From a virus: DNA of 21,498 bases. Below the pieces are notes generated by a model, which was not told where the DNA came from, searched no databases, and was given only the letters and a program-made list of their open reading frames with translations. Below, in pieces: positions 196 through 20,910 of this stretch (positions within the stretch are counted from its first letter, which is position 1; each line of letters opens with the position of its first letter). Made by a program: the position numbers and the translations under genes. The stretch lies in IMG/VR virus record IMGVR_UViG_3300022937_003382, positions 1-21,498 of that record. One strand, 5' to 3'.

Positions 196-579
196 TTAGT
201 CCGCTCTACTTTCTGAATAAACCCTCATTCCATATTTTTCAAGTTCATTAGCAAAGGCATCACAGGCTATTTCTTTTATGCTCATCGATTGAGTATGTCT
301 CCATCTATGATCCTGAGGCATGATATCATAATATGATATTCTGTATCCACCTCTATATCCATTATCTCCAACACCGGCTTTCTTCATGAAATTAACAAAT
401 TTACCTCTAGCAGGATGAATAGAAACATTAGCGAAACCACAATACATCGGTTCCTCTCTATCCTTCATAAATTCATCAACTGCCTTGATAGCCTGTGTTC
501 TTGCATTCAAGAACATATCAGCAGGACTTATGCCTTCTGCATTAAATTTTAATAAAGTTTTATTGTCTTCTGTAATCAT
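196..579 (-). CDS. Conserved phage protein of unknown function (127 aa)
   Basis: A complete 127-residue ORF with an excellent ribosome-binding site (AGGAGGT, on the plus strand ACCTCCT at 583-589) just before the ATG, and a sigma70-type promoter about 25 nt further upstream (610-637). The central block, residues about 46-80, contains CGFANVSIHPARGKFVNFMK followed by a Gly/Tyr-rich GYRGGYRISYYD segment. From memory this core recurs in small uncharacterised proteins of many tailed phages; no function is established. The C-terminus (ACDAFANELEKYGM) looks helical. The protein is soluble with no signal peptide. Its early-type promoter and its position at the head of a minus-strand unit suggest early expression (inference). 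Confidence 0.8.
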   Translation of the reverse strand: MITEDNKTLLKFNAEGISPADMFLNARTQAIKAVDEFMKDREEPMYCGFANVSIHPARGKFVNFMKKAGVGDNGYRGGYRISYYDIMPQDHRWRHTQSMSIKEIACDAFANELEKYGMRVYSESRAD

Positions 580-609
580 TACACCTCCTGTTTTAAAAAT
601 TACTCTTTC

Positions 610-637
610 ATTATAACATGGATGGTATTATGGTCAA
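610..637 (-). promoter_or_regulatory. Sigma70-type early promoter (minus strand)
   Basis: Read on the minus strand: TTGACC (plus 632-637), 16-nt spacer, TATAAT (plus 610-615). The predicted +1 lies near 603, about 25 nt before the ATG at 579, and that short leader contains AGGAGGT. The -35 is embedded in AGGTTGACC, which also occurs in the divergent promoter at 710 and in the promoter at 4565-4593. Confidence 0.8.
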
Positions 638-709: not shown

Positions 710-737
710 TTGACCGTATTTGGTTCCGTGTTATAAT
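710..737 (+). promoter_or_regulatory. Sigma70-type early promoter, predicted leaderless start
   Basis: TTGACC at 710-715, 16-nt spacer, TATAAT at 732-737. Exactly six bases then separate the -10 from the ATG at 744, so the expected +1 is the A of the start codon. It points away from the promoter at 610-637 and shares its AGGTTGACC -35 context and 16-nt spacer. Confidence 0.8.
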
Positions 738-743
738 GACAGT

Positions 744-1019
744 ATGATATATTTGGAAACAAAAAACGGTCAAATGGTCAAATCTTTGGAAACCTTGTAT
801 GAAGAATTCATAGATGGATACATCCAAGGCAATTTCATTGAAGGGGTCTGCTCTTGGAACGGAGACGATGCTTTGATGGGACCTAGATCATTCTCACATA
901 AATTCAAAAAAGAAGCATCCAAATTGGGATTTGGTTATGAAGAATACATTGGTTTCGCCAATGAGTTGGAAGAGTGGTGCCAATCATATCTAGGTAATTT
1001 GGAGATGAAATTTAGATGA
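744..1019 (+). CDS. Hypothetical small protein (91 aa)
   Basis: Starts MIYLETKNGQMVKSLETLYE. The frame is open from a TTG at 720, but that codon lies inside the promoter (-10 at 732-737), so the ATG at 744 is the credible start; it coincides with the predicted +1 and has no room for a Shine-Dalgarno. The protein is acidic to neutral, with a Trp/Gly-containing middle (GVCSWNGDDALMGPRSF) and a C-terminal helix rich in Glu. The stop overlaps the next gene's ATG in an ATGA arrangement, implying translational coupling. No family recognised. Confidence 0.7.
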   Translation: MIYLETKNGQMVKSLETLYEEFIDGYIQGNFIEGVCSWNGDDALMGPRSFSHKFKKEASKLGFGYEEYIGFANELEEWCQSYLGNLEMKFR

Positions 1020-1223: not shown

Positions 1224-1697
1224 TTATTTAGGCTTAACTATTTTAGACTTCTGTAATTTCTTTTTAGAGGCGAGACCCTTACCTTTTTTCAACTTCTTGC
1301 CTTTTTTCATTTTGGCAGTTCCGGTCTTCCTTTGCCCGATCTGTATGTTTTTCAATCTAGTGGATGCTCCACCTGACTTTATTGTTCTTGCTCTCTTCTG
1401 GGCGGTCTGCTTGGCTTTGGCCAATCGTTTCTGTGAAATCTTGGCACCTGTTTTTGGTTTCAAAGGTGCGGAACAGGTATCCTGGTTGGCCACGATACGA
1501 CCTTTCCTAGGACCTGCTATACATCTAAAACCCTTTTTCAAACCCTTGCCTTTGGTTCTTCGGAGGATTTGACCTATGCCTTCTGCTATGGCCGAATGGT
1601 CCGATGATGATACTATATCTTGTGCCACAATATCTTGTGCCTTTGATTCGGTTATGGCACTAGAAGATTTGATTTGGATGATTTCGTTGATTCTCAT
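1224..1697 (-). CDS. Very basic late protein with putative capsid-targeting N-terminus and prohead-protease-like sites
   Basis: A 157-residue protein. Residues 1-10 are MRINEIIQIK, nearly the same as the first ten (MRIFEVIQLK) of the gene at 1895. Residues 15-18 (ITE-S) and 37-40 (IAE-G) fit the T4 prohead protease pattern [L/I]-x-E followed by a small residue. A short segment with C59 and C75 (FRCIAGPRKGRIVANQDTC) resembles a segment I recall in cyanophage virion proteins. The rest is Lys/Arg-rich, ending KKKLQKSKIVKPK, as in DNA-binding internal head proteins. A 15-bp tandem duplication (copies at 1615-1626 and 1630-1641) encodes AQDIVAQDIV. A late-type CATAAATA lies 8 nt upstream of the ATG. 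Internal head protein is an inference; a non-virion basic protein is possible. Confidence 0.75.
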   Translation of the reverse strand: MRINEIIQIKSSSAITESKAQDIVAQDIVSSSDHSAIAEGIGQILRRTKGKGLKKGFRCIAGPRKGRIVANQDTCSAPLKPKTGAKISQKRLAKAKQTAQKRARTIKSGGASTRLKNIQIGQRKTGTAKMKKGKKLKKGKGLASKKKLQKSKIVKPK

Positions 1698-1705
1698 TAT
1701 GACAC

Positions 1706-1713
1706 TATTTATG
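1706..1713 (-). promoter_or_regulatory. T4-type late promoter element (minus strand)
   Basis: CATAAATA on the minus strand, 8 nt before the ATG at 1697. One base differs from the T4 late consensus TATAAATA. Predicted +1 falls within about 3 nt of the start codon and no Shine-Dalgarno is visible. Confidence 0.65.
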
Positions 1714-1882: not shown

Positions 1883-1889
1883 TTAAATA
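1883..1889 (+). promoter_or_regulatory. T4-type late promoter element, predicted leaderless start
   Basis: TTAAATA followed by exactly 5 nt and the ATG at 1895. In T4 the late box occupies about -13 to -6, so the predicted +1 is the A of the ATG. Confidence 0.65.
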
Positions 1890-1894
1890 CACAT

Positions 1895-2131
1895 ATGCGA
1901 ATATTTGAAGTGATACAACTCAAAGACAACATAGGACCCGCACCACGTGGCGTGTGTTCCAAACCCACATCATCACTGCCGGCATCGTGGGTGTCATCTT
2001 GTAAATCACAAGGTAAACGAAAAAGAACCGGTGCTAGGAAACAAAAAGTCAAAGGAAAAACCATCAAGGTTGCCAATAAAAGAATCAAGGGCAAGAAATA
2101 TGGCGGCCCTCTGCCCGATTACTCCGCTTAA
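1895..2131 (+). CDS. Small basic late protein, N-terminal paralogue of the 1224-1697 product
   Basis: 78 residues beginning MRIFEVIQLK, matching the start of the divergent neighbour (MRINEIIQIK). Residues about 15-40 hold two cysteines in RGVCSKPTSSLPASWVSSCK; the rest is Lys/Arg-rich and ends in KGKKYGGPLPDYSA. That KKYGGPLPDYS-type ending recurs, from memory, in small proteins of marine phages. No Shine-Dalgarno; the TTAAATA element predicts a leaderless message. The composition and shared leader peptide suggest a DNA-associated head protein, by analogy with T4 internal proteins. That is inference; no enzymatic motif is seen. Frames in the other registers here are shadows. Confidence 0.7.
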   Translation: MRIFEVIQLKDNIGPAPRGVCSKPTSSLPASWVSSCKSQGKRKRTGARKQKVKGKTIKVANKRIKGKKYGGPLPDYSA

Positions 2132-4620: not shown

Positions 4621-5082
4621 TTAATTGTCCTTGACTTTGGGCACATGAAATAAATCTATGCCTTTATCTAGCAATTTGTTTGTTTCTTCTTCTGTGGCTG
4701 TGCCAAAAAACTGATCATTTCTTTCACCTTGATCACATTTGATGGCTTCCTCGTAGAATCTATTGCCCACGTTCTCAAAATTTTTGGTAATGTATTTGCC
4801 AATACGTCTCAGTACATTGGAAGCCTGTGAAGCCGGCATCATTTGTTCAGAAGACACAGATTCCTCTCTCATTTGTTGTAGTCTTTCTTTCTTGGATTCA
4901 GATCTTGTTTTTGTTTTTGTTTTCTTGACATTGGGCGCCATGATGGCCTTGTTGACATAGGGACTGTCGCACACAGGACAAAGCAGTTGTCCTTTTTTCT
5001 TTTGTTTGGTAAATTCTTTACTATTTGGAAACCAACCGTCAAACTCGTGATCCAAATCACAGATAAGTCGATATTTTATCAT
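4621..5082 (-). CDS. DUF1178 family protein with N-terminal zinc-ribbon-like motif
   Basis: 153 residues from the ATG at 5082. The frame is open further upstream (to 5253) but there it is antisense to the GNAT gene, and the family N-terminus is MIKYRLICDLDHEFDGWF, so 5082 is right (an ATG two codons earlier is possible). Residues 8-40 hold the metal-binding-type cysteines C8 and the CPVC pair, followed by the family segment NKAIMAPNVK. The middle is a charged coiled-coil-like linker (RSESKKERLQQMREE). The C-terminus, IGKYITKNFENVGNRF then EEETNKLLDKGID, matches the family's layout. DUF1178 proteins are found mainly in alpha- and betaproteobacteria, function unknown; this copy is likely host-derived. 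The promoter overlaps that of the divergent GNAT gene. Confidence 0.88.
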   Translation of the reverse strand: MIKYRLICDLDHEFDGWFPNSKEFTKQKKKGQLLCPVCDSPYVNKAIMAPNVKKTKTKTRSESKKERLQQMREESVSSEQMMPASQASNVLRRIGKYITKNFENVGNRFYEEAIKCDQGERNDQFFGTATEEETNKLLDKGIDLFHVPKVKDN

Positions 5083-5092
5083 ATACATACTT

Positions 5093-5121
5093 ATTATAAA
5101 AGCAATTTGACAACAAGTCAA
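5093..5121 (-). promoter_or_regulatory. Sigma70-type promoter for the DUF1178 gene (minus strand)
   Basis: Minus strand: TTGACT (plus 5116-5121), 17-nt spacer, TATAAT (plus 5093-5098). The -10 is 4 nt from an ATG (5088) and 10 nt from the conserved start (5082), so the leader is at most a few bases. It interlocks with the divergent promoter at 5107-5135. Confidence 0.75.
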
Positions 5122-5135
5122 TATTATATTAGTAT
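5107..5135 (+). promoter_or_regulatory. Sigma70-type promoter for the GNAT gene, predicted leaderless start
   Basis: TTGACA 5107-5112, 17-nt spacer, TAGTAT 5130-5135, then exactly 6 nt to the ATG at 5142. The two divergent -35 hexamers form the inverted repeat TTGACAACAAGTCAA (5107-5121), so the polymerase sites overlap. Confidence 0.75.
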
Positions 5136-5141
5136 TATTAC

Positions 5142-5687
5142 ATGAAGTACAAAATTGAGGACACAGTAGACAAAACAGGAGAACCTGTTTCGATATGGCA
5201 TTCTGATTGTTTCGTACAAAACAAAGAACTTTACACGATATATGAAAAATCAATAGCCTTCATGATGGAGAAAGGCTGGGCAATGAATCCATCAGGACTC
5301 ATAAAGTCCGATCACAAGGTTATATTTGCAGAGAACAAGGATGGACGACCCATGGGAGGAGTTGTGTATGAATACCATCCATGGAATAAGCAAGGATGGA
5401 TCGTGTTAATTTTCACAGCGGACGAATTCAGAGGCAGACATATTTACAGTCTACTACAAAAAGCACTCGAAGATGAGACCATCAAGTTGGGTGGTACCAG
5501 CATAGCCAGTCTGGCACACAAGGACAACGAACCCAGAATCAAGGCAGGAGCCAGGGAAGGAATGCATCCACAATATCTTCGATTGTACAAAGATCTTTCC
5601 AATGAGTTAGAAAAAAGAAAAACTTATATGCAAATCAAATTAAAAAAAGAATGGAAAGACATCACTAAAGAAAGATGGAGAGGCTAA
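5142..5687 (+). CDS. GNAT-family N-acetyltransferase
   Basis: 181 residues. The GNAT signature lies at about residues 70-115: strand GGVVYEYHP, strand GWIVLIFTADEF, then the acetyl-CoA pyrophosphate loop and helix EFRGRHIYSLLQKAL, matching the R/Q-x-x-G-x-G/A pattern loosely (a Tyr replaces the last small residue). Residues 135-150 (AREGMHPQYLRLYKDL) match the family's C-terminal 'xxxGFxxxxxxYxxxL' region. The last 30 residues are a Lys-rich helix. The substrate cannot be inferred. The ATG coincides with the predicted +1, so the message is probably leaderless. The next gene starts one base after the stop. Confidence 0.8.
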   Translation: MKYKIEDTVDKTGEPVSIWHSDCFVQNKELYTIYEKSIAFMMEKGWAMNPSGLIKSDHKVIFAENKDGRPMGGVVYEYHPWNKQGWIVLIFTADEFRGRHIYSLLQKALEDETIKLGGTSIASLAHKDNEPRIKAGAREGMHPQYLRLYKDLSNELEKRKTYMQIKLKKEWKDITKERWRG

Positions 5688-5888: not shown

Positions 5889-5927
5889 TATAGACAACAA
5901 GCAAAAATGTGTTAATATATTAAAATT

Positions 5928-6233
5928 ATGAAAAGAAGAACAAAAAGTATCCTCGAAGAATTAAGTTCAGTAAGAATTAACAAAGATGAATCTGAGCATT
6001 TTGTGGAGTCTAGAGCATCGCATATCATCGACTCTGCCATAAATTTGATATATTTCATAAGAGAAAATTTTACCCCGGAGACTGCTTACATCCTAGAAAA
6101 AAAGTTTAATTCGTCGATAAAGAATCTCGATGCCAGTAAGTTCACAAGAGGTGTCAACAAACTAAAAGATCTAAAAGAAGTCAAGAAGTCTTTAACTATC
6201 AAAGAGGGTGAATTACAAGAAGAGGACGACTAA
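5928..6233 (+). CDS. Conserved T4-like marine phage protein of unknown function (101 aa)
   Basis: Starts MKRRTKSILEELSSVRINKD and continues ESRASHIIDSAINLIYFIRE, ending with a charged tail. I recall near-identical architecture (MKRRTK-ILEEL, then ESRA-H-I-AINLI-FI) in uncharacterised proteins of T4-like cyanophages and pelagiphages. It is all-helical and soluble. Its stop overlaps the next gene's ATG by one base (TAATG), implying coupling with the DUF6267-type gene. Confidence 0.75.
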   Translation: MKRRTKSILEELSSVRINKDESEHFVESRASHIIDSAINLIYFIRENFTPETAYILEKKFNSSIKNLDASKFTRGVNKLKDLKEVKKSLTIKEGELQEEDD

Positions 6234-7453
6234 TGTTAATTGAAGAAGTCCTTAGAGAGTTCAAAAGAACACACCTAGAGCACATTGAAGATATTATCCT
6301 CACATCCGGATATCAAGGAGGTGAAGCAGTAGTCGGCTATTTCACTGACATATATAATATGCTGAAAGGACAGAGTTCAACAGCATTACAGATGTCAGTG
6401 AAATGGGATGGTGCTCCTGCTGTTATTTGTGGCATCAATCCTGCAAATGGAAAATTTTTCGTTGGTACCAAATCAGTATTTGCCAAATCACCAAAAATAA
6501 ATTATACCAAAAAAGATATCGCAACAAATCACGGAACTGGAGATTTGGGAGAGAAACTATTAAAATGTTTGGTGCATTTGTCCAAATTGAACATACAAGG
6601 AGTTGTACAGGGAGATATGATGTTTACCGACAACGATCTTGTGAGACAAAAGATCAACGGAGAAAACTTTATCACATTCAAACCCAACGAAATTGTTTAT
6701 GCTGTTCCCGAAAATTCCGAAATAGGCAAAACGATATCACAAGCAAAAGTAGGAATTATTTTTCACACAACATACACAGGTGAATCATTGGGAGAAATGA
6801 ACGCCCAAGCAGGCGCAGATATATCTTCGTTCGTTAAAACTAACGATGTATGGTATGACAACGCCACTTATAAAAATGTTTCGGGCTCGGCCACTTTTAC
6901 AGCATCTGAATCTAAAAGTTTTGCCAGTGGTATCCAAACACTAAAAAAACTTTTGTCAAACGTTCCACAAAATTTATCAGCCATGTTATCAACCAACAAA
7001 GAGTTCATTCCGATGTTCCAGATGTTTATAAACTCAGAAGTCAAACAAGGACGTTTGCCTGATAACGTCAATCAATTTCTAAAAGGTTTTCAAGAATTCT
7101 ATGTTGCAAGAATGAATCAACAAATGGCTGGACTGAAAGCACAAAAGGCCATTCAACTAAGACAACAAAAAATGAAACAGATGCCGGCATTTATGAACAC
7201 AATAAAAAAACCATTACAGGCCATGCTGACTTTTTACAAACAAGTACAAATACTAAAAGCAGAAGCACTCCAAAAAATGAACCAAGCCATGCAGGTTGGC
7301 ACATTTGCTCAGACTGAGAATGGTTTGGAAGTCACAGACCCGGAAGGTTTTGTTGCTGTTGGATCGGACGGTGGTGCAGTCAAATTAGTGGACAGGCTCA
7401 CATTCTCAAGAAGAAACTTGAGTGCCATCAAAAAATTTGATAAAACCCAATAA
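6233..7453 (+). CDS. DUF6267-type phage protein with ligase-like nucleotidyltransferase motif
   Basis: 406 residues, resembling large T4-like cyanophage proteins I associate with DUF6267. Residues 55-64 (SVKWDGAPAV) match the KxDG motif I of covalent nucleotidyltransferases (ATP/NAD ligases, capping enzymes), with K57 as candidate nucleotide-attachment lysine. VVQGDMM at about 123-129 could be motif III, and VGIIFHTTYTGES near residue 180 a later core motif. The C-terminal third is Gln/Met/Lys-rich helix (QKAIQLRQQKMKQMP). The extreme N-terminus (MLIEEVLREF) resembles the leader-like starts of other late genes here. It overlaps the convergent glycosyltransferase gene by 48 nt. Enzymatic activity is inference; the family is uncharacterised as far as I know. 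Confidence 0.8.
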   Translation: MLIEEVLREFKRTHLEHIEDIILTSGYQGGEAVVGYFTDIYNMLKGQSSTALQMSVKWDGAPAVICGINPANGKFFVGTKSVFAKSPKINYTKKDIATNHGTGDLGEKLLKCLVHLSKLNIQGVVQGDMMFTDNDLVRQKINGENFITFKPNEIVYAVPENSEIGKTISQAKVGIIFHTTYTGESLGEMNAQAGADISSFVKTNDVWYDNATYKNVSGSATFTASESKSFASGIQTLKKLLSNVPQNLSAMLSTNKEFIPMFQMFINSEVKQGRLPDNVNQFLKGFQEFYVARMNQQMAGLKAQKAIQLRQQKMKQMPAFMNTIKKPLQAMLTFYKQVQILKAEALQKMNQAMQVGTFAQTENGLEVTDPEGFVAVGSDGGAVKLVDRLTFSRRNLSAIKKFDKTQ

Positions 7454-8458: not shown

Positions 8459-8465
8459 GTAAATA
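8459..8465 (+). promoter_or_regulatory. T4-type late promoter element, predicted leaderless start
   Basis: GTAAATA followed by exactly 5 nt and the ATG at 8471, the same geometry as at 1883 and 19353. Confidence 0.65.
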
Positions 8466-8470
8466 TTTCT

Positions 8471-9043
8471 ATGTTAATGCCCTTCATACAGTATGTATCT
8501 GAAGCAAGAGTGGTTCGAAGACAAAACGACCTACAACGCTTCACGTTCCAAGATATACAAGAGCGTATATATCTAACATTTTTGGGTTTGTCTCTACTAA
8601 AAAATATCAACAACGAAGGAAAACAGTGGGCAAAAATGTATGCTCAAAGCACACTGACTTATGGTGATTTTAAAATCGTGAGAACATCAGGAAACGATTT
8701 ATACAATATGCTATCGGTCGTGGATGGTAAAGAAGACATAGTCAAAAAATTGAGAAATCCAAAACAGGCAGAGGCGTTGAGACAAAGGTCCACCTTGCCG
8801 ACACTGGCTGTGAAACGTTACCTAAGGAAATTGTCTGATGATTATGACTTCCTCACAAAATTAGAAAACACACTCAACATCAGCAACGTCGAATACAAAA
8901 ACCTACGTAGAAGCATCAGTGATTATTCAAATCTCAAAAAAACAGATAAGAACAATGTCAATCACAGAATGGCAAAACTATTACAAAATAAATTACACGC
9001 CACAGATATAACAAAAAAAATAAAACAACTGCTGGGACAATGA
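8471..9043 (+). CDS. Late protein with T4 capsid-targeting-like N-terminus (190 aa)
   Basis: The frame opens at a GTG at 8444, but the late promoter geometry puts +1 at the ATG at 8471; an ATG at 8477 is the alternative. The N-terminus MLMPFIQYVSEARVVRR closely parallels the T4 internal-protein leader (MKTYQEFIAE, then A-x-VV), with a possible protease cut after the Glu. The rest is helical and basic with repeated charged stretches (VKRYLRKLSDDYDFLTKLEN) and ends ITKKIKQLLGQ. This fits a protein packaged in the head and ejected with DNA, but that is inference from the leader alone. The stop overlaps the next start (ATGA). Confidence 0.7.
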   Translation: MLMPFIQYVSEARVVRRQNDLQRFTFQDIQERIYLTFLGLSLLKNINNEGKQWAKMYAQSTLTYGDFKIVRTSGNDLYNMLSVVDGKEDIVKKLRNPKQAEALRQRSTLPTLAVKRYLRKLSDDYDFLTKLENTLNISNVEYKNLRRSISDYSNLKKTDKNNVNHRMAKLLQNKLHATDITKKIKQLLGQ

Positions 9044-10076: not shown

Positions 10077-10083
10077 ATAAATA
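10077..10083 (+). promoter_or_regulatory. T4-type late promoter element
   Basis: ATAAATA in the gap after the FkbM gene. Predicted +1 near 10089, so the hairpin at 10094-10110 would sit at the 5' end of a roughly 55-nt leader. Confidence 0.7.
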
Positions 10084-10093
10084 ATTGCAACGT

Positions 10094-10110
10094 GTCACCG
10101 GAGCGGTGAC
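10094..10110 (+). promoter_or_regulatory. 5'-leader hairpin of the late mRNA
   Basis: GTCACC, loop GGAGC, GGTGAC: a perfect 6-bp GC-rich stem near the predicted 5' end. It is well upstream of the AAGGAG (10132-10137), so it is more likely an mRNA stabiliser than a translation block. Confidence 0.6.
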
Positions 10111-10144
10111 TCGCCATTAACGAAGAGAAAAAAGGAGAAAAACA

Positions 10145-10510
10145 ATGGCAACGATATCAAGAAATATCAGCACGACTCCATTTGCAGTGGGAACTTATGT
10201 TCAAACTGGAAACGTTGGAGCATTCAAAGTAACGTGTCAAAACTCATCAGATGCGGCTCAGGATCTAAGAAACGAGACTGGTGCAAACGAAGTTATTCAG
10301 ATGATTTTACACGCAACAAATGCCATCGGTTACACGATCGCTAATGACAACACAGGCGTTATCTCATTATTAGTAGATAACTCTCAGTGGGACGCGGCTG
10401 GCTTACAGACTGCGATCAGAGGATTAGGATCTGTAACAGGTGACGACTCAACTTCAATCGACCTAACTGGTTCGGATGTGGTTGCGGCAACAACATTAAC
10501 AGTAGCATAA
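10145..10510 (+). CDS. Probable abundant virion protein (121 aa)
   Basis: Starts MATISRNISTTPFAVGTYVQ after a strong AAGGAG with 7-nt spacing, a late promoter and a leader hairpin: all signs of high late expression. The composition is Thr/Ser/Ala/Gly/Asn-rich, beta-type, nearly free of Lys and with a single Cys, as in capsid-decoration or tail proteins. Residues about 83-110 (DAAGLQTAIRGLGSVTGDDS) are weakly similar to EAQLKSVIRALEVSGGSGNG in the next gene, so the pair may be paralogous. The initiation region AGGAGAAAAACAATGGC is identical in both genes. Virion role is inference; no T4 homologue is recognised. Confidence 0.75.
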   Translation: MATISRNISTTPFAVGTYVQTGNVGAFKVTCQNSSDAAQDLRNETGANEVIQMILHATNAIGYTIANDNTGVISLLVDNSQWDAAGLQTAIRGLGSVTGDDSTSIDLTGSDVVAATTLTVA

Positions 10511-14412: not shown

Positions 14413-14441
14413 TTGTAATATAATCTAATATACTATATAAT
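14413..14441 (+). promoter_or_regulatory. Sigma70-type promoter for the exonuclease gene
   Basis: TTGTAA 14413-14418, 17-nt spacer, TATAAT 14436-14441, then 9 nt to the ATG at 14451. The leader would be at most about 3 nt. The surroundings are AT-rich, so other -10 matches exist nearby. Confidence 0.55.
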
Positions 14442-14450
14442 TTTTACTGT

Positions 14451-15155
14451 ATGAAAATACCAACAGAAACATTCAAAAGCAAAGGTATAGAATATATTCA
14501 ACGTTTTGAATATAATGAACTCAGTCGAGCATCTCGTAACGGTAAACGTCATTACGAAACACCCGACGGAAGACAGGTGCCATCGGTCACAACTGTACTG
14601 AGCGCCACAAAGGATATGACACACCTACACGCCTGGCGTAAAAGGATTGGTGTGGAGAAGGCACAGCAGATCACGACAGAGAGTGCCAACATAGGAACAG
14701 TGATGCACCGTAGCCTAGAGAAGCACGTGAAAGGCGAAGATCGAACTCCAGGGTCTAATCTCATACAGCAGAAGGCACATGCCATGGCCAACATAATAAT
14801 TGACAATGGGTTGAACAATGTTTCGGAGGTTTGGGGATCTGAGGTTTCGCTTTATTATCCCGAGCTATATGCAGGTACCACAGATCTTGTGGGAGTGTAC
14901 AAAGGAGCACCTGCCATAATGGATTTCAAACAAGCACGTAAATTGAAAAAGAAAGAATGGGTGGAAGATTACTATCTTCAATTAGTGGCTTATGCAGAAG
15001 CACACAACAAACTATTTGATACTGATATAAAAACAGGACGTATTTTTATCTGCACACAAAACAACGAGTATCAAACCTTTGAAATTGACGATTATGATAA
15101 ATGGTCTGACCAATGGTATCGTCGACTAGAGCAATATTATAAGTCTATCCTTTAG
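14451..15155 (+). CDS. PD-(D/E)XK exonuclease (RecB/MGME1-like)
   Basis: 234 residues. Motifs in order: VPSVTTVLSAT (residues 43-53, as in MGME1-type nucleases), GTVMHRSLEKH (H86), E131 in WGSEVSL, D145 in GTTDLVGVY, the catalytic D158-x-K160 in IMDFKQARK, and QLVAY (Q177, Y181), the RecB-family motif. It is predicted to degrade DNA from ends in a metal-dependent way, serving phage DNA recombination or processing. Similar genes are annotated as exonucleases in T4-like cyanophages. A sigma70-type promoter lies a few bases before the ATG, unlike the late-type elements around it. It may act earlier than its structural neighbours. Confidence 0.9.
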   Translation: MKIPTETFKSKGIEYIQRFEYNELSRASRNGKRHYETPDGRQVPSVTTVLSATKDMTHLHAWRKRIGVEKAQQITTESANIGTVMHRSLEKHVKGEDRTPGSNLIQQKAHAMANIIIDNGLNNVSEVWGSEVSLYYPELYAGTTDLVGVYKGAPAIMDFKQARKLKKKEWVEDYYLQLVAYAEAHNKLFDTDIKTGRIFICTQNNEYQTFEIDDYDKWSDQWYRRLEQYYKSIL

Positions 15156-15163
15156 CATAAATA
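15156..15163 (+). promoter_or_regulatory. T4-type late promoter element
   Basis: CATAAATA just after the exonuclease stop. Predicted leader of about 20 nt containing AAGGAG (15175-15180), 8 nt before the GTG at 15189. Confidence 0.7.
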
Positions 15164-15188
15164 CTGTAAATTTTAAGGAGAAAATACA

Positions 15189-16799
15189 GTGCCAATAGTG
15201 CAAATTTCAAGAATCCAACACCGTAGGGGTAAAGCAACCGACTTGCCACAACTTGCCGCGGGAGAACTGGGTTGGGTGATTGACGAACAAAAACTCTACA
15301 TAGGTAATGGCACAGTGGCCGATGGTGCACCGGCTGTGGGCAACACAGAAATCATCACAGAAAATTCCACAGGATTTGCTTCTGCTTTACAATATATCTA
15401 CAAGGGTTATAGACAAGATGACACAATATTAACTGGTGCAAATGTCAATTCTCCAACAACAAGATCTCTACAGGCAAGACTCGACGATATTGTTTCTATA
15501 AAAAGTTTTGGAGCAATAGGAAACGGTAATGATTCAATTGCTACCACCAACACACAGGCTATTCAAAGAGCCCTAGACGAAATTTATTCCGACATAGTGG
15601 ATCAAGGTGATGCTCAAAGCAGAAGAATAATTCTTTTTCCTGCAGGCATTTACAAAATAAATTCAACATTAAAGATTCCACCTTATGCCCAATTGGTGGG
15701 AGAAGGTAACGGCAAGACAATTATTCATAACATAGGTACAGGTTCAATAGCACAAACAGTCGATCAAGATGGCGTAGGATTTGGAAGCATGACTGGATCA
15801 GCAACAACACCTAAAAATATTTCCGTAGAAGGAATCACTTTTAAAACAGGTACATCTTATGGTGGGATATCTATAGACTGTGCAGAAAATGTTTCGTTTT
15901 ATGATTGTGGATTTGAAGGTGCATACACTTTAGGTGGTAGTGATGTTGTTCCTTCGATAGATTCTTCTATCGGCAAAGGTATCACGATTAGATCCACAAC
16001 TGCATTAACATCTTCAAACATAACATTTGACAAATGTACTTTCACAAAATTTGCTAGATTGGTACAATTGGATCATGATGTTGTATCTGTGAAATTTATC
16101 AATTCAGATTTTACACTGGCTAGGTTTGGAGCGGTAATAGGTACGCTGGGAGATGGATCGTCGTCAGGACAAACAACTGGTCCAAAAAATATTCAGTTTT
16201 TATCTAATCAATTTAAACAAATTCATGAGAGTGCTGTAAAAGTTTCTAACTCCCCAGGAGAAGTTAGAAATGTGGTAACTTTCAATAACTTTTTTGATCG
16301 AACAGTTGGTTTGGCCAATTCCGGAGGTGTTGATAACATAACGACATACCCGATCGTGCAGTTTGACGCAGATGAATGTTCTTCTGTACTTGACTATTTT
16401 GACATCAGCGGTAGAAGAAGTAACACACTGGTTCCTCTAGATGAAGTGCAAGGAATTTGCAATGTGACCAGTCCTGTTAGAGTTGCAACTCTGCAAAACA
16501 ATCAGTCATTGGCATCAACAGGAATAATGATCCCGGCGGCCGAAAACAAAAAGATCACAATTGAATACAAAATTGAAAGAGGTTCTAATCATAGAGTTGG
16601 AAAATTAATCATCAACGCATATACCACTGGCGTTTCCTACAGTGACGAATTTGAAGAAAACAGTGATGTGCAGGTTGATTTGATACCTTCGTGGGATGAT
16701 CTAGATTCTTCAGGATCAAGCGATTCTGTGGTAATTAGATACAACACCGACAACAGTGTTGCCGGCACATTAAACTACCAAGTCACAGTTGGTGTTTAA
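15189..16799 (+). CDS. Tail fibre / tailspike-like protein with pectate-lyase beta-helix
   Basis: 536 residues starting at a GTG with AAGGAG at 8-nt spacing and a late promoter. Residues about 5-45 (QISRIQHRRGKATDLPQLAA, GELGWVIDEQKLYIGNG) are a short adaptor-type N-terminus common in phage fibre proteins. From about 100 the segment SIKSFGAIGNGNDS, then RRIILFPAGIYKINSTLKIP, matches the pectate-lyase-like beta-helix family (PF12708). Asn/Ser/Thr-rich repeats (ISVEGITFKTG, ITFDKCTFTKF) continue the helix to about 390. The C-terminus is a beta-rich receptor- or carbohydrate-binding-type domain. It likely mediates host recognition or surface glycan cleavage. Catalytic residues cannot be identified, so lyase activity is not claimed. 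Confidence 0.85.
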   Translation: MPIVQISRIQHRRGKATDLPQLAAGELGWVIDEQKLYIGNGTVADGAPAVGNTEIITENSTGFASALQYIYKGYRQDDTILTGANVNSPTTRSLQARLDDIVSIKSFGAIGNGNDSIATTNTQAIQRALDEIYSDIVDQGDAQSRRIILFPAGIYKINSTLKIPPYAQLVGEGNGKTIIHNIGTGSIAQTVDQDGVGFGSMTGSATTPKNISVEGITFKTGTSYGGISIDCAENVSFYDCGFEGAYTLGGSDVVPSIDSSIGKGITIRSTTALTSSNITFDKCTFTKFARLVQLDHDVVSVKFINSDFTLARFGAVIGTLGDGSSSGQTTGPKNIQFLSNQFKQIHESAVKVSNSPGEVRNVVTFNNFFDRTVGLANSGGVDNITTYPIVQFDADECSSVLDYFDISGRRSNTLVPLDEVQGICNVTSPVRVATLQNNQSLASTGIMIPAAENKKITIEYKIERGSNHRVGKLIINAYTTGVSYSDEFEENSDVQVDLIPSWDDLDSSGSSDSVVIRYNTDNSVAGTLNYQVTVGV

Positions 16800-16924: not shown

Positions 16925-19357
16925 ATGACAGCAAACATTTCAGTACAAGAACAAAAAACTCTGATAAATACCCATACAAAAAAAACAAAATCCAATTTGA
17001 ATAATACTGTAATGACCAATACTAATACCTCCGCCATCAATGTCGCAAAAAGAGATGGCAGGTTGGAGCCATTGGACATCAATAAAATTCATTTTGTTGT
17101 TGAAGAAGCCTGTGAAGATTTGTCTGGGGTATCAGCATCACAGATAGAAATCAATGCCAACTTACAATTTTATGACGGAATGTCGACGAAGGACATTCAA
17201 AATGTTCTTGTGCGTTCGGCCAATGACCTGACCACTCTGGAAAATCCCAATTATCAATATGCCGCGGCAAGGTTACTGCTTTATGATGTGAGAAAAGAAG
17301 CACACGGTCAATATGAATATATGCCACTCTTGAAATTAATTTTGAGAAATATCAGATTGGGTGTGTATGACAAAGGCATCGTTGAAAAATACAATAAAAC
17401 CGAATTAAAAAAATTTAACACTTGGATAAGAAGAGACAGAGATCTAAATTTTGCCTATGCTGGTTTAAGACAAGTGGTAGATAAGTATCTTGTACAAGAC
17501 AGATCGTCGGGCGAGTTGTACGAAACTCCACAAGATATGTACATGATGATCTCAGCAACACTGTTTGCCGATTATCCAAAAAACAAAAGGATGAGCTATG
17601 TTAAAAAATATTATGACGCAATTTCTCAATTCAAAATTAATATCCCAACTCCGGTCATGGCCGGTGTACGTACGCCTATCAGACAGTTTGCAAGTTGTGT
17701 TCTCGTTGACAGCGACGACACTCTTCCTAGCATTTTTAGTACTGACATGGCTATTGGTCTTTACGTGGCTCGTCGTGCAGGAATTGGTATTAATGCTGGT
17801 AGAATTCGTGGTATCAATTCTAAGATACGTGGTGGTGAAGTTCAACACACTGGTGTCGTCCCGTTCCTCAAAAAATTCGAAAGCACAGTAAGGTGTTGCA
17901 CACAGAACGGTGTGCGAGGTGGTTCAGCAACTGTACACTTCCCAATATGGCACCAAGAAATCGAAGACATATTAGTTCTGAAAAACAACAAAGGCACAGA
18001 AGACAACAGGGTTAGAAAATTAGATTATTCAATACAGTTATCTAAACTGTTTTACGAAAGATTCATTAACGACGAAGAAATAACTTTGTTCTCTCCACAC
18101 GAAACCCCGGGACTGTATGATGCGTTCGGCACAGACAAGTTTGATGATTTATATGTAAAATATGAAAAAGATAAAAATATTCCTAAAAAAACTATTTCAG
18201 CACAAGAACTATTTTTTGATCTATTGAAAGAAAGAGCAGAGACAGGACGTATCTACATAATGAACATAGATCATTGTAATTCACATTCGTCCTTTAAAGA
18301 TAAAGTTAGTATGTCAAACCTTTGCCAAGAAATAACATTGCCAACAACACCCATACAACACATCGACGACGACAAAGGTGAGATTGCTTTATGTATTCTT
18401 TCTGCAATCAATGTGGGTGCCCTCAATAATTTAGAAGAGTTAGAAAACTTATGTGACCTGGCTGTGAGAGCCTTGGAAGAAATTATAGAATATCAAGAGT
18501 ATCCTGTCAAAGCGGCAGAGACCAGCACAAAGAAAAGAAGAAGTTTGGGTGTTGGCTATATTGGGTTGGCACATTATCTAGCCAAACTAGGTTTTAATTA
18601 TTCACAACCAGAAGCATGGGACTCAGTGGATAGACTATCCGAAGCATTTCAATTCAATCTACTTAAAGCATCCAACAAACTGGCAGAAGAACGTGGTGCC
18701 TGCGAAGGTTTCTCTCAAACAAAATATGCAGACGGAATACTGCCTATAGACACATACAAAAAAGATATAGATAAAATTGTGCCACACAAACAAAGATATG
18801 CGTGGGAGTCACTGAGAAAAGACATTATAAAATACGGACTAAGACATTCCACACTATCAGCACAGATGCCATCGGAAAGTTCTTCCGTTGTCAGTAATGA
18901 AACCAACGGCATCGAACCACCAAGAGCATTGTTATCCATTAAGAAAAGCAAGAAAGGTCCACTCAAACAGATTGTGCCGGGCTTTCCTAAACTTAAAAAT
19001 GCCTACACTCTGTTGTGGGATATGCCATCAAATGAAGGTTACATCAATGTTGTGGCAATGATGCAGAAATATTTTGACCAAGCCATATCGGGCAACTGGA
19101 GTTACAATCCACTCAACTATGAAAATAACGAAGTACCGTTGTCAGTAATGGCTTCGGATTTATTAAATTCATACAAATACGGTTGGAAAACTTCTTACTA
19201 TCAAAACACTTATGATTTCAAAGGCGACGAAGAAGATGTACAACCATCGGGTATAGAGACCACAGAGACCGCAGATGGCGAAGACGTACAACTAACCGAT
19301 CTTGGAGTAAATGGGAACAGTGAGGACGAAGAAGCCTGTGACGCCTGTGCAATATAA
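16925..19357 (+). CDS. nrdA: Class I ribonucleotide reductase, alpha subunit (NrdA)
   Basis: 810 residues; reduces ribonucleoside diphosphates to deoxy forms together with NrdB. An ATP-cone domain (residues about 40-130, beginning VAKRDGRLEPLDINKI) is present, so dATP feedback regulation may be retained. Key residues: C258 (FASCVLVDSDD) and C490 (ALCILSAINVG) as the redox pair; N465-C467-E469 (SNLCQEITLP) as the substrate site with the thiyl cysteine; paired Tyr in GWKTSYYQNTYDF for radical transfer; and the shuttle cysteines in the terminal CDACAI (805-810). A Ser/Thr/Lys-rich segment of about 37 residues precedes the cone, so the ATG at 17012 is an alternative start. An acidic linker precedes the CxxC tail. 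nrdB follows 8 nt downstream. Confidence 0.97.
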   Translation: MTANISVQEQKTLINTHTKKTKSNLNNTVMTNTNTSAINVAKRDGRLEPLDINKIHFVVEEACEDLSGVSASQIEINANLQFYDGMSTKDIQNVLVRSANDLTTLENPNYQYAAARLLLYDVRKEAHGQYEYMPLLKLILRNIRLGVYDKGIVEKYNKTELKKFNTWIRRDRDLNFAYAGLRQVVDKYLVQDRSSGELYETPQDMYMMISATLFADYPKNKRMSYVKKYYDAISQFKINIPTPVMAGVRTPIRQFASCVLVDSDDTLPSIFSTDMAIGLYVARRAGIGINAGRIRGINSKIRGGEVQHTGVVPFLKKFESTVRCCTQNGVRGGSATVHFPIWHQEIEDILVLKNNKGTEDNRVRKLDYSIQLSKLFYERFINDEEITLFSPHETPGLYDAFGTDKFDDLYVKYEKDKNIPKKTISAQELFFDLLKERAETGRIYIMNIDHCNSHSSFKDKVSMSNLCQEITLPTTPIQHIDDDKGEIALCILSAINVGALNNLEELENLCDLAVRALEEIIEYQEYPVKAAETSTKKRRSLGVGYIGLAHYLAKLGFNYSQPEAWDSVDRLSEAFQFNLLKASNKLAEERGACEGFSQTKYADGILPIDTYKKDIDKIVPHKQRYAWESLRKDIIKYGLRHSTLSAQMPSESSSVVSNETNGIEPPRALLSIKKSKKGPLKQIVPGFPKLKNAYTLLWDMPSNEGYINVVAMMQKYFDQAISGNWSYNPLNYENNEVPLSVMASDLLNSYKYGWKTSYYQNTYDFKGDEEDVQPSGIETTETADGEDVQLTDLGVNGNSEDEEACDACAI

Positions 19358-19360
19358 ATA
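19353..19360 (+). promoter_or_regulatory. Exact TATAAATA before nrdB, predicted leaderless start
   Basis: The exact T4 late consensus overlaps the nrdA stop codon and lies 5 nt before the nrdB ATG, so the predicted +1 is the start codon. Because nrdB is normally early/middle and is cotranscribed with nrdA, it could be coincidental, but the geometry equals that at 1883 and 8459. Confidence 0.45.
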
Positions 19361-19365
19361 ACCCA

Positions 19366-20466
19366 ATGACAAAGACAGTATTCAATAAACAAAAAATAGA
19401 TTTCACAAAACAACCCATGTTCTTTGGTGAGGACGGTGGTGTTCAGAGATATGATGATTTCAAGTATCCACAGTTTGATAAACTGAACCAAACCATGATA
19501 GGATATTTTTGGAGACCAGAAGAAGTTTCATTACAAAAAGACAGAGCAGACTATCAAGGATTCAGACCAGAACAAAAACACATATTCACCAGCAATCTAA
19601 AATATCAAACACTGTTGGATTCAGTGCAGGGCAGAGGACCAAGTCTTATGTTCCTACCATATGTTTCTAATCCGGAACTGGAAGGCTGTATTGTGACTTG
19701 GGATTTCTTCGAAACCATACACTCAAGATCATACACACACATCATGAAGAATGTGTATTCGGATCCATCAGAAGTGTTTGACACAATATTAGATGACAAG
19801 GAAATATTAAAAAGAGCAGAAAGTGTAACAGGTGAGTATGACAAGTTCGGAGCAATGGCCATGGATTATGCTGTGGGCAAAAAAGTAGACATGATTGAAC
19901 TTAAGAAACAACTGTATCTGGCAATGATGACCGTGAACTTGCTGGAGGGTTTGAGATTTTATATTTCATTTGCTTGTACCTTTGCATTTGGTGAATTGAA
20001 ATTGATGGAGGGATCGGCTAAGATCCTCTCACTGATCGCTAGAGACGAAGCCACACACTTGAACCTTTCAACACACGTGATCAAAGCATGGCAAAAAGGT
20101 GATGATCCTGAAATGACCAAAGCAATGAAAGGCACAGAAAAAACTGTGCTCCAGATGTTCAAAGACTGTGTAGAAGAAGAAAAAGCCTGGGCGAAATATC
20201 TATTCAGAGACGGGTCGATTATTGGATTGAACGAAAGATTATTAGGATCTTATGTTGAGTGGACAGCAAACAAACGATTGAGAGCATTGGGCTTTGATCC
20301 AATTTACGATATATCAGCATCACAAAATCCTTTACCTTGGACACAGCATTGGTTGTCATCAAAAGGTATGCAGGTGGCTCCACAGGAGACAGAAGTCGAA
20401 AGTTATATCGTGGGTGGCATCAAGCAAGATGTCAAGAAAGACTCATTCAAAAAGTTTTCATTATAA
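19366..20466 (+). CDS. nrdB: Class Ia ribonucleotide reductase, beta subunit (NrdB)
   Basis: 366 residues; carries the diiron-tyrosyl radical cofactor for NrdA. The metal ligands are all visible: D85 (TLLDSVQ), E116 and H119 (WDFFETIHSRSY), E194 (LLEGLRFY), E228 and H231 (ARDEATH). The radical Tyr is Y123, in the position of E. coli Y122, which indicates a tyrosyl-radical rather than a radical-free Mn/Fe enzyme. The C-terminal tail KDSFKKFSL should dock on NrdA. The region between the ligands of the second half is typical in length. It directly follows nrdA; no Shine-Dalgarno is seen, so it may be translated by coupling or from a leaderless message at 19353. Confidence 0.97.
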   Translation: MTKTVFNKQKIDFTKQPMFFGEDGGVQRYDDFKYPQFDKLNQTMIGYFWRPEEVSLQKDRADYQGFRPEQKHIFTSNLKYQTLLDSVQGRGPSLMFLPYVSNPELEGCIVTWDFFETIHSRSYTHIMKNVYSDPSEVFDTILDDKEILKRAESVTGEYDKFGAMAMDYAVGKKVDMIELKKQLYLAMMTVNLLEGLRFYISFACTFAFGELKLMEGSAKILSLIARDEATHLNLSTHVIKAWQKGDDPEMTKAMKGTEKTVLQMFKDCVEEEKAWAKYLFRDGSIIGLNERLLGSYVEWTANKRLRALGFDPIYDISASQNPLPWTQHWLSSKGMQVAPQETEVESYIVGGIKQDVKKDSFKKFSL

Positions 20467-20473
20467 ATCAATA

Positions 20474-20502
20474 TTGACTTTTAAATTATTTCGTGTTACC
20501 AT
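20474..20502 (+). promoter_or_regulatory. Sigma70-type promoter for sufE, predicted leaderless start
   Basis: TTGACT 20474-20479, 17-nt spacer, TGT-TACCAT (extended -10; hexamer 20497-20502), then exactly 6 nt to the ATG at 20509. Confidence 0.65.
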
Positions 20503-20508
20503 AAGAAC

Positions 20509-20910
20509 ATGATACTAGAAAAAATAAAAGAATTTGGTAATGATCTAAAAATGTTAGAAGGTCACGATCGTCTACAATATCTTGTTGACAAAGCAAAAGA
20601 AGTAGAGCCGTTACCAGACGCCGTTAAAACAGAAGAAAATAGAATACACGGTTGTGCCAGTAAGTTGTGGATAGTAGGCGGTGCAGATGCAGAAAATAAA
20701 ATGCAATACAGAGTTGATGGTGATGCCTTTATTACTAAAGGAACTGCTAAAGTTGTCACGGACATAGTAAACGGAGCTCATCGTAGCGAAGTTGCAAACT
20801 TGACAGTAGAAAATTTTACAGAACTAGGAATCAAAGAATTGTTAACACTTCAAAGACAAAACGGATTGGGCGAATTAATTTTAAGAATTATAAGGATCGC
20901 CAATGCATAG
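20509..20910 (+). CDS. sufE: SufE-like cysteine desulfurase sulfur acceptor
   Basis: 133 residues. The SufE fold is indicated by EGHDRLQYLVDKAK, the PLPDAVKTEENRIHGCASK segment with catalytic C49 (family GCQSQVW, E. coli C51), and the C-terminal RSEVANLTVENFTELGIKEL then LTLQRQNGL and helical end LGELILRIIRI. SufE accepts persulfide sulfur from SufS and passes it to the SufBCD scaffold. No sufS or sufBCD is nearby, so it should act on the host system. Its own promoter separates it from nrdAB. The stop is overlapped by the DUF59 gene, so the two are likely a functional pair. Confidence 0.92.
   Translation: MILEKIKEFGNDLKMLEGHDRLQYLVDKAKEVEPLPDAVKTEENRIHGCASKLWIVGGADAENKMQYRVDGDAFITKGTAKVVTDIVNGAHRSEVANLTVENFTELGIKELLTLQRQNGLGELILRIIRIANA

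Follow-up and report, generated by a model that had tools for sequence, protein, structure and literature searches.

Does a promoter whose -10 hexamer lies only 6 nt before a start codon give rise to a message without any leader? The question is raised by the beginning of a 21,498 bp IMG/VR virus record (the whole stretch of DNA analysed here, hereafter the window), where such a promoter precedes a small ORF. The genes of the window include nrdAB, DUF6267 and PHROG virion proteins. Its nrdA/nrdB DNA is ~73-79% identical to that of marine T4-like phages, with Pelagibacter phage Mosig as the top match. SufE and a cold-shock protein (CSD) were also found, both by profile rather than by eye; host-type genes apparent by eye in the related contigs G017, G022, and G020 are DnaK, ClpX-like, SufB-like, GroEL-like, and PurF-like. 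For two proteins of the window lineage there was no protein-level match among 50,697 phage records.

The initial annotation had listed three promoters placed 6 nt in front of ATG codons and lacking a Shine-Dalgarno (SD) sequence. All three were found, letter by letter, at the positions given:

710-746, plus strand: sigma70-type promoter, TTGACC (710-715)-16-TATAAT (732-737) with TG before the -10, i.e., TTGACC-16-TGTTATAAT, 6 nt to ATG 744; leaderless start predicted for ORF 744-1019 (sequence and scan).
744-1019, plus strand: ORF of 91 aa, unknown function, served by the 710-746 promoter; its start agrees with homologues.
5107-5144, plus strand: sigma70-type promoter, TTGACA (5107-5112)-17-TAGTAT (5130-5135), 6 nt to ATG 5142 (sequence and scan).
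5142-5687, plus strand: GNAT acetyltransferase-like gene (Pfam PF00583, E=4e-6).
20474-20511, plus strand: extended -10 promoter, TTGACT (20474-20479)-17-TGTTACCAT, with TACCAT at 20497-20502, 6 nt to ATG 20509 (sequence and scan).
20509-20910, plus strand: SufE-like gene (Pfam PF02657, E=7e-29).

With SD defined as GGAG, AGGA, GAGG or AAGG at -18 to -4, none is present at ATGs 744, 5142, and 20509. Dinucleotide shuffles of the window upstream regions contained on average 0.023 promoter-like sites at a gap of 6 nt to the ATG, and three such sites were reached in 0 of 1000 shuffles. The promoter block of ORF 744, ACCAGGTTGAC[CG]GTAT...TGTTAT, is kept in the divergent contigs G023 and G024, where it lies 5 nt before the ATG; the homologue in L067 has an SD leader in place of the promoter at the ATG. 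TACCAT at 20497-20502 matches the consensus at just 4 of 6 positions, though it is TG-extended. The SufE homologue in L058/G014 has a different promoter, TTGGCA-17-TATTAT, likewise 6 nt before the ATG. The SufE start codon is supported by the N-terminus common to most homologues (~55 contigs), most of which lack such a promoter, the gene being located inside an operon.

Four more sigma70-type promoters of the window are relevant, the last of them as a contrast:

5080-5121, minus strand: divergent promoter TTGACT-17-TATAAT, -10 at 5098-5093, for the DUF1178 gene (ORF 4621-5082/5088) (sequence and scan).
14413-14453, plus strand: TTGTAA-17-TATAAT (-10 at 14436-14441), 9 nt to ATG 14451 of a PD-(D/E)XK nuclease gene (scan).
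5891-5930, plus strand: TAGACA-16-TGTTAATAT-like promoter, 9 nt to ATG 5928 (scan).
579-637, minus strand: TTGACC-16-TATAAT located 30 nt upstream of ATG 579, with an AGGAGG SD (scan).

The DUF1178 and exonuclease promoters were said earlier to leave at most a few leader bases. The predicted leaders are indeed short (~0-6 and 2-3 nt, respectively), but both cases are weaker than the main three. The -10 of the DUF1178 promoter is 4 nt from ATG 5088 and 10 nt from ATG 5082; the latter agrees with the family (MIKY...). In the G020 homologue the -10 is located five nt before the ATG, and homologues in seven other contigs have a predicted leaderless late promoter (see below) instead. The nuclease homologues in G004, G005, G022, and G024 have gaps of 6-7 nt. 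For the homologue of the ATG 5928 gene in G017, G021, and G022, TATAAT is followed by TAAATA 5-6 nt before the ATG.

Two observations concern the DUF1178 region itself. Homologues in G016, G017, G022, and others carry an early -10 TATAAT directly followed by a putative leaderless late promoter (TATAATAGTAAATAATATTATG), suggesting that a single start codon is served by overlapping promoters of the early and the late type. At 5093-5135 of the window the divergent promoters overlap: TTGACaacaaGTCAA (5107-5121) is an inverted repeat whose arms are the two -35 elements. Competition for polymerase between DUF1178 and the GNAT gene, or a regulator common to both, is therefore possible.

The genome-wide comparison of -10-to-ATG spacing proposed in the initial annotation was carried out on whole IMG/VR relative contigs after dropping near-identical ones (1376 genes in 506 protein families; gene starts from the hexamer-based caller used in this analysis). 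At a score threshold of >=10, sigma70-type promoters were located 5-7 nt before the ATG in 70 genes, far above both the shuffles (1.9) and the other spacings (3.35 per gap). Their -35 and -10 hexamers are 16-18 nt apart and the TG extension is frequent. Nine of the 70 were dropped as leaderless cases, since they combine an SD with another in-frame ATG ~20 nt downstream. The cleaned set comprises 61 genes of 33 families, every one of them starting with ATG (61/61) and none preceded by SD (0/61), while SD accompanies 69% of sigma70-type promoters located 15-50 nt upstream. Counting all early genes with gaps of 5-9 nt as leaderless was rejected because 12 genes (gaps of 4-9 nt) show this combination of an SD and a further in-frame ATG. 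Judging by their type, the sigma70-type promoters of the window lineage would be active early in infection.

A second promoter class, overlooked earlier, was found in the window. TAAATA, the core of T4-type late promoters, is located 5 nt before ATGs 1895, 8471, and 19366, and less closely elsewhere (the last two entries being contrasts):

1884-1897, plus strand: late-promoter core TAAATA (1884-1889), 5 nt to ATG 1895 (sequence and scan).
8460-8473, plus strand: TAAATA (8460-8465), 5 nt to ATG 8471 (scan).
19355-19368, plus strand: TAAATA (19355-19360), 5 nt to ATG 19366 of nrdB (sequence and scan).
1695-1711, minus strand: TAAATA (1711-1706), 8 nt to ATG 1697; predicted leader of 3 nt (scan).
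15154-15191, plus strand: TAAATA 25 nt upstream of the GTG start 15189, with AGGAG (sequence and scan).
10078-10147, plus strand: late core 61 nt upstream of ATG 10145, with AAGGAG (sequence and scan).

The TAAATA spacing is identical in 9 contigs for the gene family of ATG 8471. In front of nrdB, the TAA at 19355-19357 doubles as the stop codon of nrdA.

Among the relatives, TAAATA occurs exactly 5 nt before the ATG in 79 genes of 40 families, compared to a mean of 2.83 genes and 2.36 families per other gap (Poisson P ~1e-83 and ~1e-34, respectively; family counts are safer, since the contigs share ancestry and the gene-level value overstates independence). SD is absent from the space between the core and the ATG in all of these genes (0/79) and all start with ATG (79/79, compared to 92% of other genes), while TAAATA located 12-59 nt upstream is accompanied by SD in 62% of cases. 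A strand switch precedes 47% of the gap-5 late genes and 9% of the others. Sixteen families have a gap-5 late promoter in at least two contigs; in 11 of them the core and the spacing are kept although the upstream DNA is just 23-41% identical. TAAATA was the core searched for; in the window lineage the two bases in front of it (the first TA of TATAAATA) show no conservation. As the late promoters constitute the larger and sharper class, the leaderless pattern is not mainly a feature of early genes. The earlier proposal of leaderless mRNAs from sigma70-type promoters is strongly supported by the 5-7 nt spacing peak and the absence of SD, but was incomplete.

T4 late promoters span -13 to -6. 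Five bases between TAAATA and the ATG therefore place the predicted +1 on the A of the ATG. The two promoter types, measured with different rulers, would thus converge on one point, +1 being the A of AUG. We consider it highly probable that these are real promoters with +1 on the A of AUG or 1-3 nt before it, giving rise to leaderless or nearly leaderless mRNAs. The motifs, their spacing, the absence of SD, the position at the heads of transcription units and the conservation across diverged relatives are direct observations. The lineage would use two modes of initiation: distant promoters would produce a leader of 15-50 nt with SD, while messages from promoters at unit heads would begin at AUG. 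This would be achieved by promoter placement, with the -10 of sigma70-type promoters 5-7 nt and TAAATA of T4-type late promoters exactly 5 nt before the ATG. Presumably, host RNA polymerase starts on the A of AUG at the former, polymerase with a gp55-type late sigma factor does so at the latter, and ribosomes attach directly to the AUG at the 5' end, a mode that might, as suggested earlier, evade the control of normal initiation.

Individual genes may have leaders of 1-4 nt or a transcription start 1-2 nt inside the AUG, as the distance from -10 to +1 varies and the exact +1 may shift at single genes. Some genes are also reached by read-through from upstream, which would give a leadered message. 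A systematic offset is a different matter: real promoters could start slightly off the AUG, leaving leaders of 4-12 nt, and ribosomes would then initiate by scanning or standby without SD instead of on a 5'-terminal AUG. Gap classes of 8-9 nt (early) and 6-8 nt (late) do exist, as this explanation would require, but the peaks fall exactly at the +1 given by the ruler of each promoter type (5 nt for late, 5-7 nt for sigma70-type promoters). Moreover, the late genes with a gap of 8 nt keep a Y-A step at a fixed distance from TAAATA (Y in 96%, A in 93%), which fits a fixed +1 and a leader of 3 nt. We regard this alternative as improbable. A hairpin with a T-run ends 15-18 nt before TAAATA in 7 of 79 gap-5 genes and in 15 of 1297 others (P=1e-4), and such a terminator-like structure leaves hardly any room for a leader longer than ~28 nt.

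Still less credible is the idea that TAAATA-N5-ATG is an AU-rich, SD-independent translation initiation signal rather than a promoter. It would account for the fixed distance to the ATG and for the overlap of some TAAATA with upstream stop codons, such as the nrdA TAA (19355-19357). However, TAAATA is found at the heads of transcription units (the strand-switch excess above) and directly after terminators, and an unrelated promoter type converges on the ATG in the same way. It also matches the already known T4/cyanophage late promoter NATAAATA (PMC2984593), and the same core is located 20-35 nt upstream of genes in other phages. In the late region of T4, processed identically, no core has a gap of 5 nt and the cores are found at 21-28 nt. 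Syn9 has 0 at gap 5 and 8 at 20-35 nt, P-SSM2 has 1 and 14, respectively, and 50 kb of the OM43 phage Melnitz have 0 at gap 5 and 9 at 20-34 nt. Chance or a gene-calling artefact in AT-rich DNA is the least likely explanation of all: AT-rich genomes do give many promoter-like strings (79 in the window, 63 expected) and a dozen early cases have doubtful starts, yet the spacing peaks are missing from the shuffles and from the identically processed control phages, and the late gap-5 peak recurs at independently annotated GenBank starts in HTVC008M.

Compared to T4 and cyanomyophage late promoters (TATAAATA / NATAAATA, gp55; PMC2984593), those of the window lineage share TAAATA and have an equal predicted distance from it to +1. 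What differs is the position relative to the gene: the core is ~20-35 nt upstream in T4, Syn9, P-SSM2, and Melnitz and ~5 nt upstream, without SD, in the window lineage. SD motifs are frequent in T4 (0.67), unlike the gap-5 late genes, which have none.

The late gap-5 arrangement is shared by the pelagimyophages HTVC008M and Mosig (Kyanoviridae), with 11 genes in the former, all at GenBank-annotated starts, and 6 in the latter. In HTVC008M the CDSs predicted to have leaderless messages are those at 6280, 7562, 11972, 16007(-), 18916(-), 19456, 31132, 49760, 75559, 75830, and 142360. Likewise, 80 marine T4-like loci bearing gp55, in which ATAAATA predominates, contain 48 genes with a gap of 5 nt, whereas gaps of 4, 6, 7, or 8 nt do not occur. 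The trait therefore reaches beyond the window lineage, at least for late promoters. Unlike these, the early leaderless peak was seen solely in the window lineage, being absent in HTVC008M and in 50 kb of Mosig. The gp55-bearing loci (L192-L271) have another TAAATA spike 51 nt upstream of the ATG (36 genes), with smaller ones at 49 and 54; the 51-nt spike is a predicted conserved long late leader before some gene near gp55. Searches for the late sigma factor in the window-lineage fragments with phrog_234, PF04542, and phmmer using HTVC008M and Mosig gp55 gave no match; phrog_234 (gp55) is present in G013, G030, and HTVC008M. Similarly, gp23 (PF07068) was not found in the window-lineage fragments but was found in the related contigs G013 and G030.

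The DnaK encoded by the related contig G022 has its best bacterial-genome matches among Pelagibacteraceae (78-80% identity), which makes a SAR11 host likely. SD motifs precede only 12% of genes in 400 kb of one SAR11 genome. In the same 400 kb, TAnnnT shows a weak excess at gaps 5 and 6 (22 and 19, compared to ~9 per gap) and strict promoters at gaps 5-7 number 4, with 0.9 expected. These figures are only suggestive of leaderless mRNA use by SAR11 itself.

Proteins resembling bS21 are encoded by HTVC008M, Mosig, and 11 related IMG/VR contigs (G004, G005, G008, G009, G010, G013, G014, G017, G020, G022, and G023), two of the 13 being below the Pfam cut-off; T4, Syn9, and P-SSM2 do not encode bS21. 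The correlation of bS21 with the leaderless trait is suggestive, involving few independent phages. We tentatively speculate, considering it possible though not the likelier outcome, that T4-like phages of SAR11 have gone over to leaderless initiation for much of their transcription, both early and late, adapting to hosts that rarely use SD, perhaps with the aid of bS21, while the closely related Melnitz and cyanophages, which have other hosts, kept their leaders.

Lambda cI transcribed from PRM is a single phage case of leaderless mRNA. Leaderless mRNAs are known in bacteria, e.g., the mycobacterial leaderless class (PMC4633059). In both, as in the window lineage, the -10 lies ~6 nt before the ATG, SD is lacking and the start is AUG. 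Unlike in either, the arrangement in the phage lineage involves dozens of genes and two promoter classes, and SD-led genes coexist with it. A passing remark in the literature calls phage transcripts often leaderless (PMC5312081). The searchable literature, which largely excludes subscription journals and with them the main cyanophage transcriptome papers, yielded no account of a T4-like lineage whose early and late transcripts are both leaderless; within this scope, a phage lineage basing both its early and late programmes on leaderless mRNA appears to be unreported.

T4-like phages of SAR11 are a major marine group. SAR11 bacteria themselves are described as being among the most abundant cells on Earth (PMC7029224). 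If many messages of these phages lack a leader, they are missed by standard promoter and start-site prediction. A pelagimyophage survey reports no success in predicting late promoters in these genomes (PMC7029224), which promoters placed directly on the ATG might explain. If the proposed mode of initiation is true, HTVC008M on Pelagibacter HTCC1062 would provide a natural cultivable system for competition between leaderless and SD-led mRNAs, and the phage-encoded bS21 would gain a testable role.

A recurrent early leader, ATGAAnvAAGGAGTTGAAATG, was observed in G002, G005, G016, G017, G021, G022, and G023 (e.g., G005:13463 and G022:14702). The predicted +1 falls on its first ATG; AAGGAG comes next, and then another, in-frame ATG. 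When SD-led early genes were scanned, 8 of 9 such 5' ATGs shared the reading frame of the gene, a proportion that is partly due to gene-calling bias.
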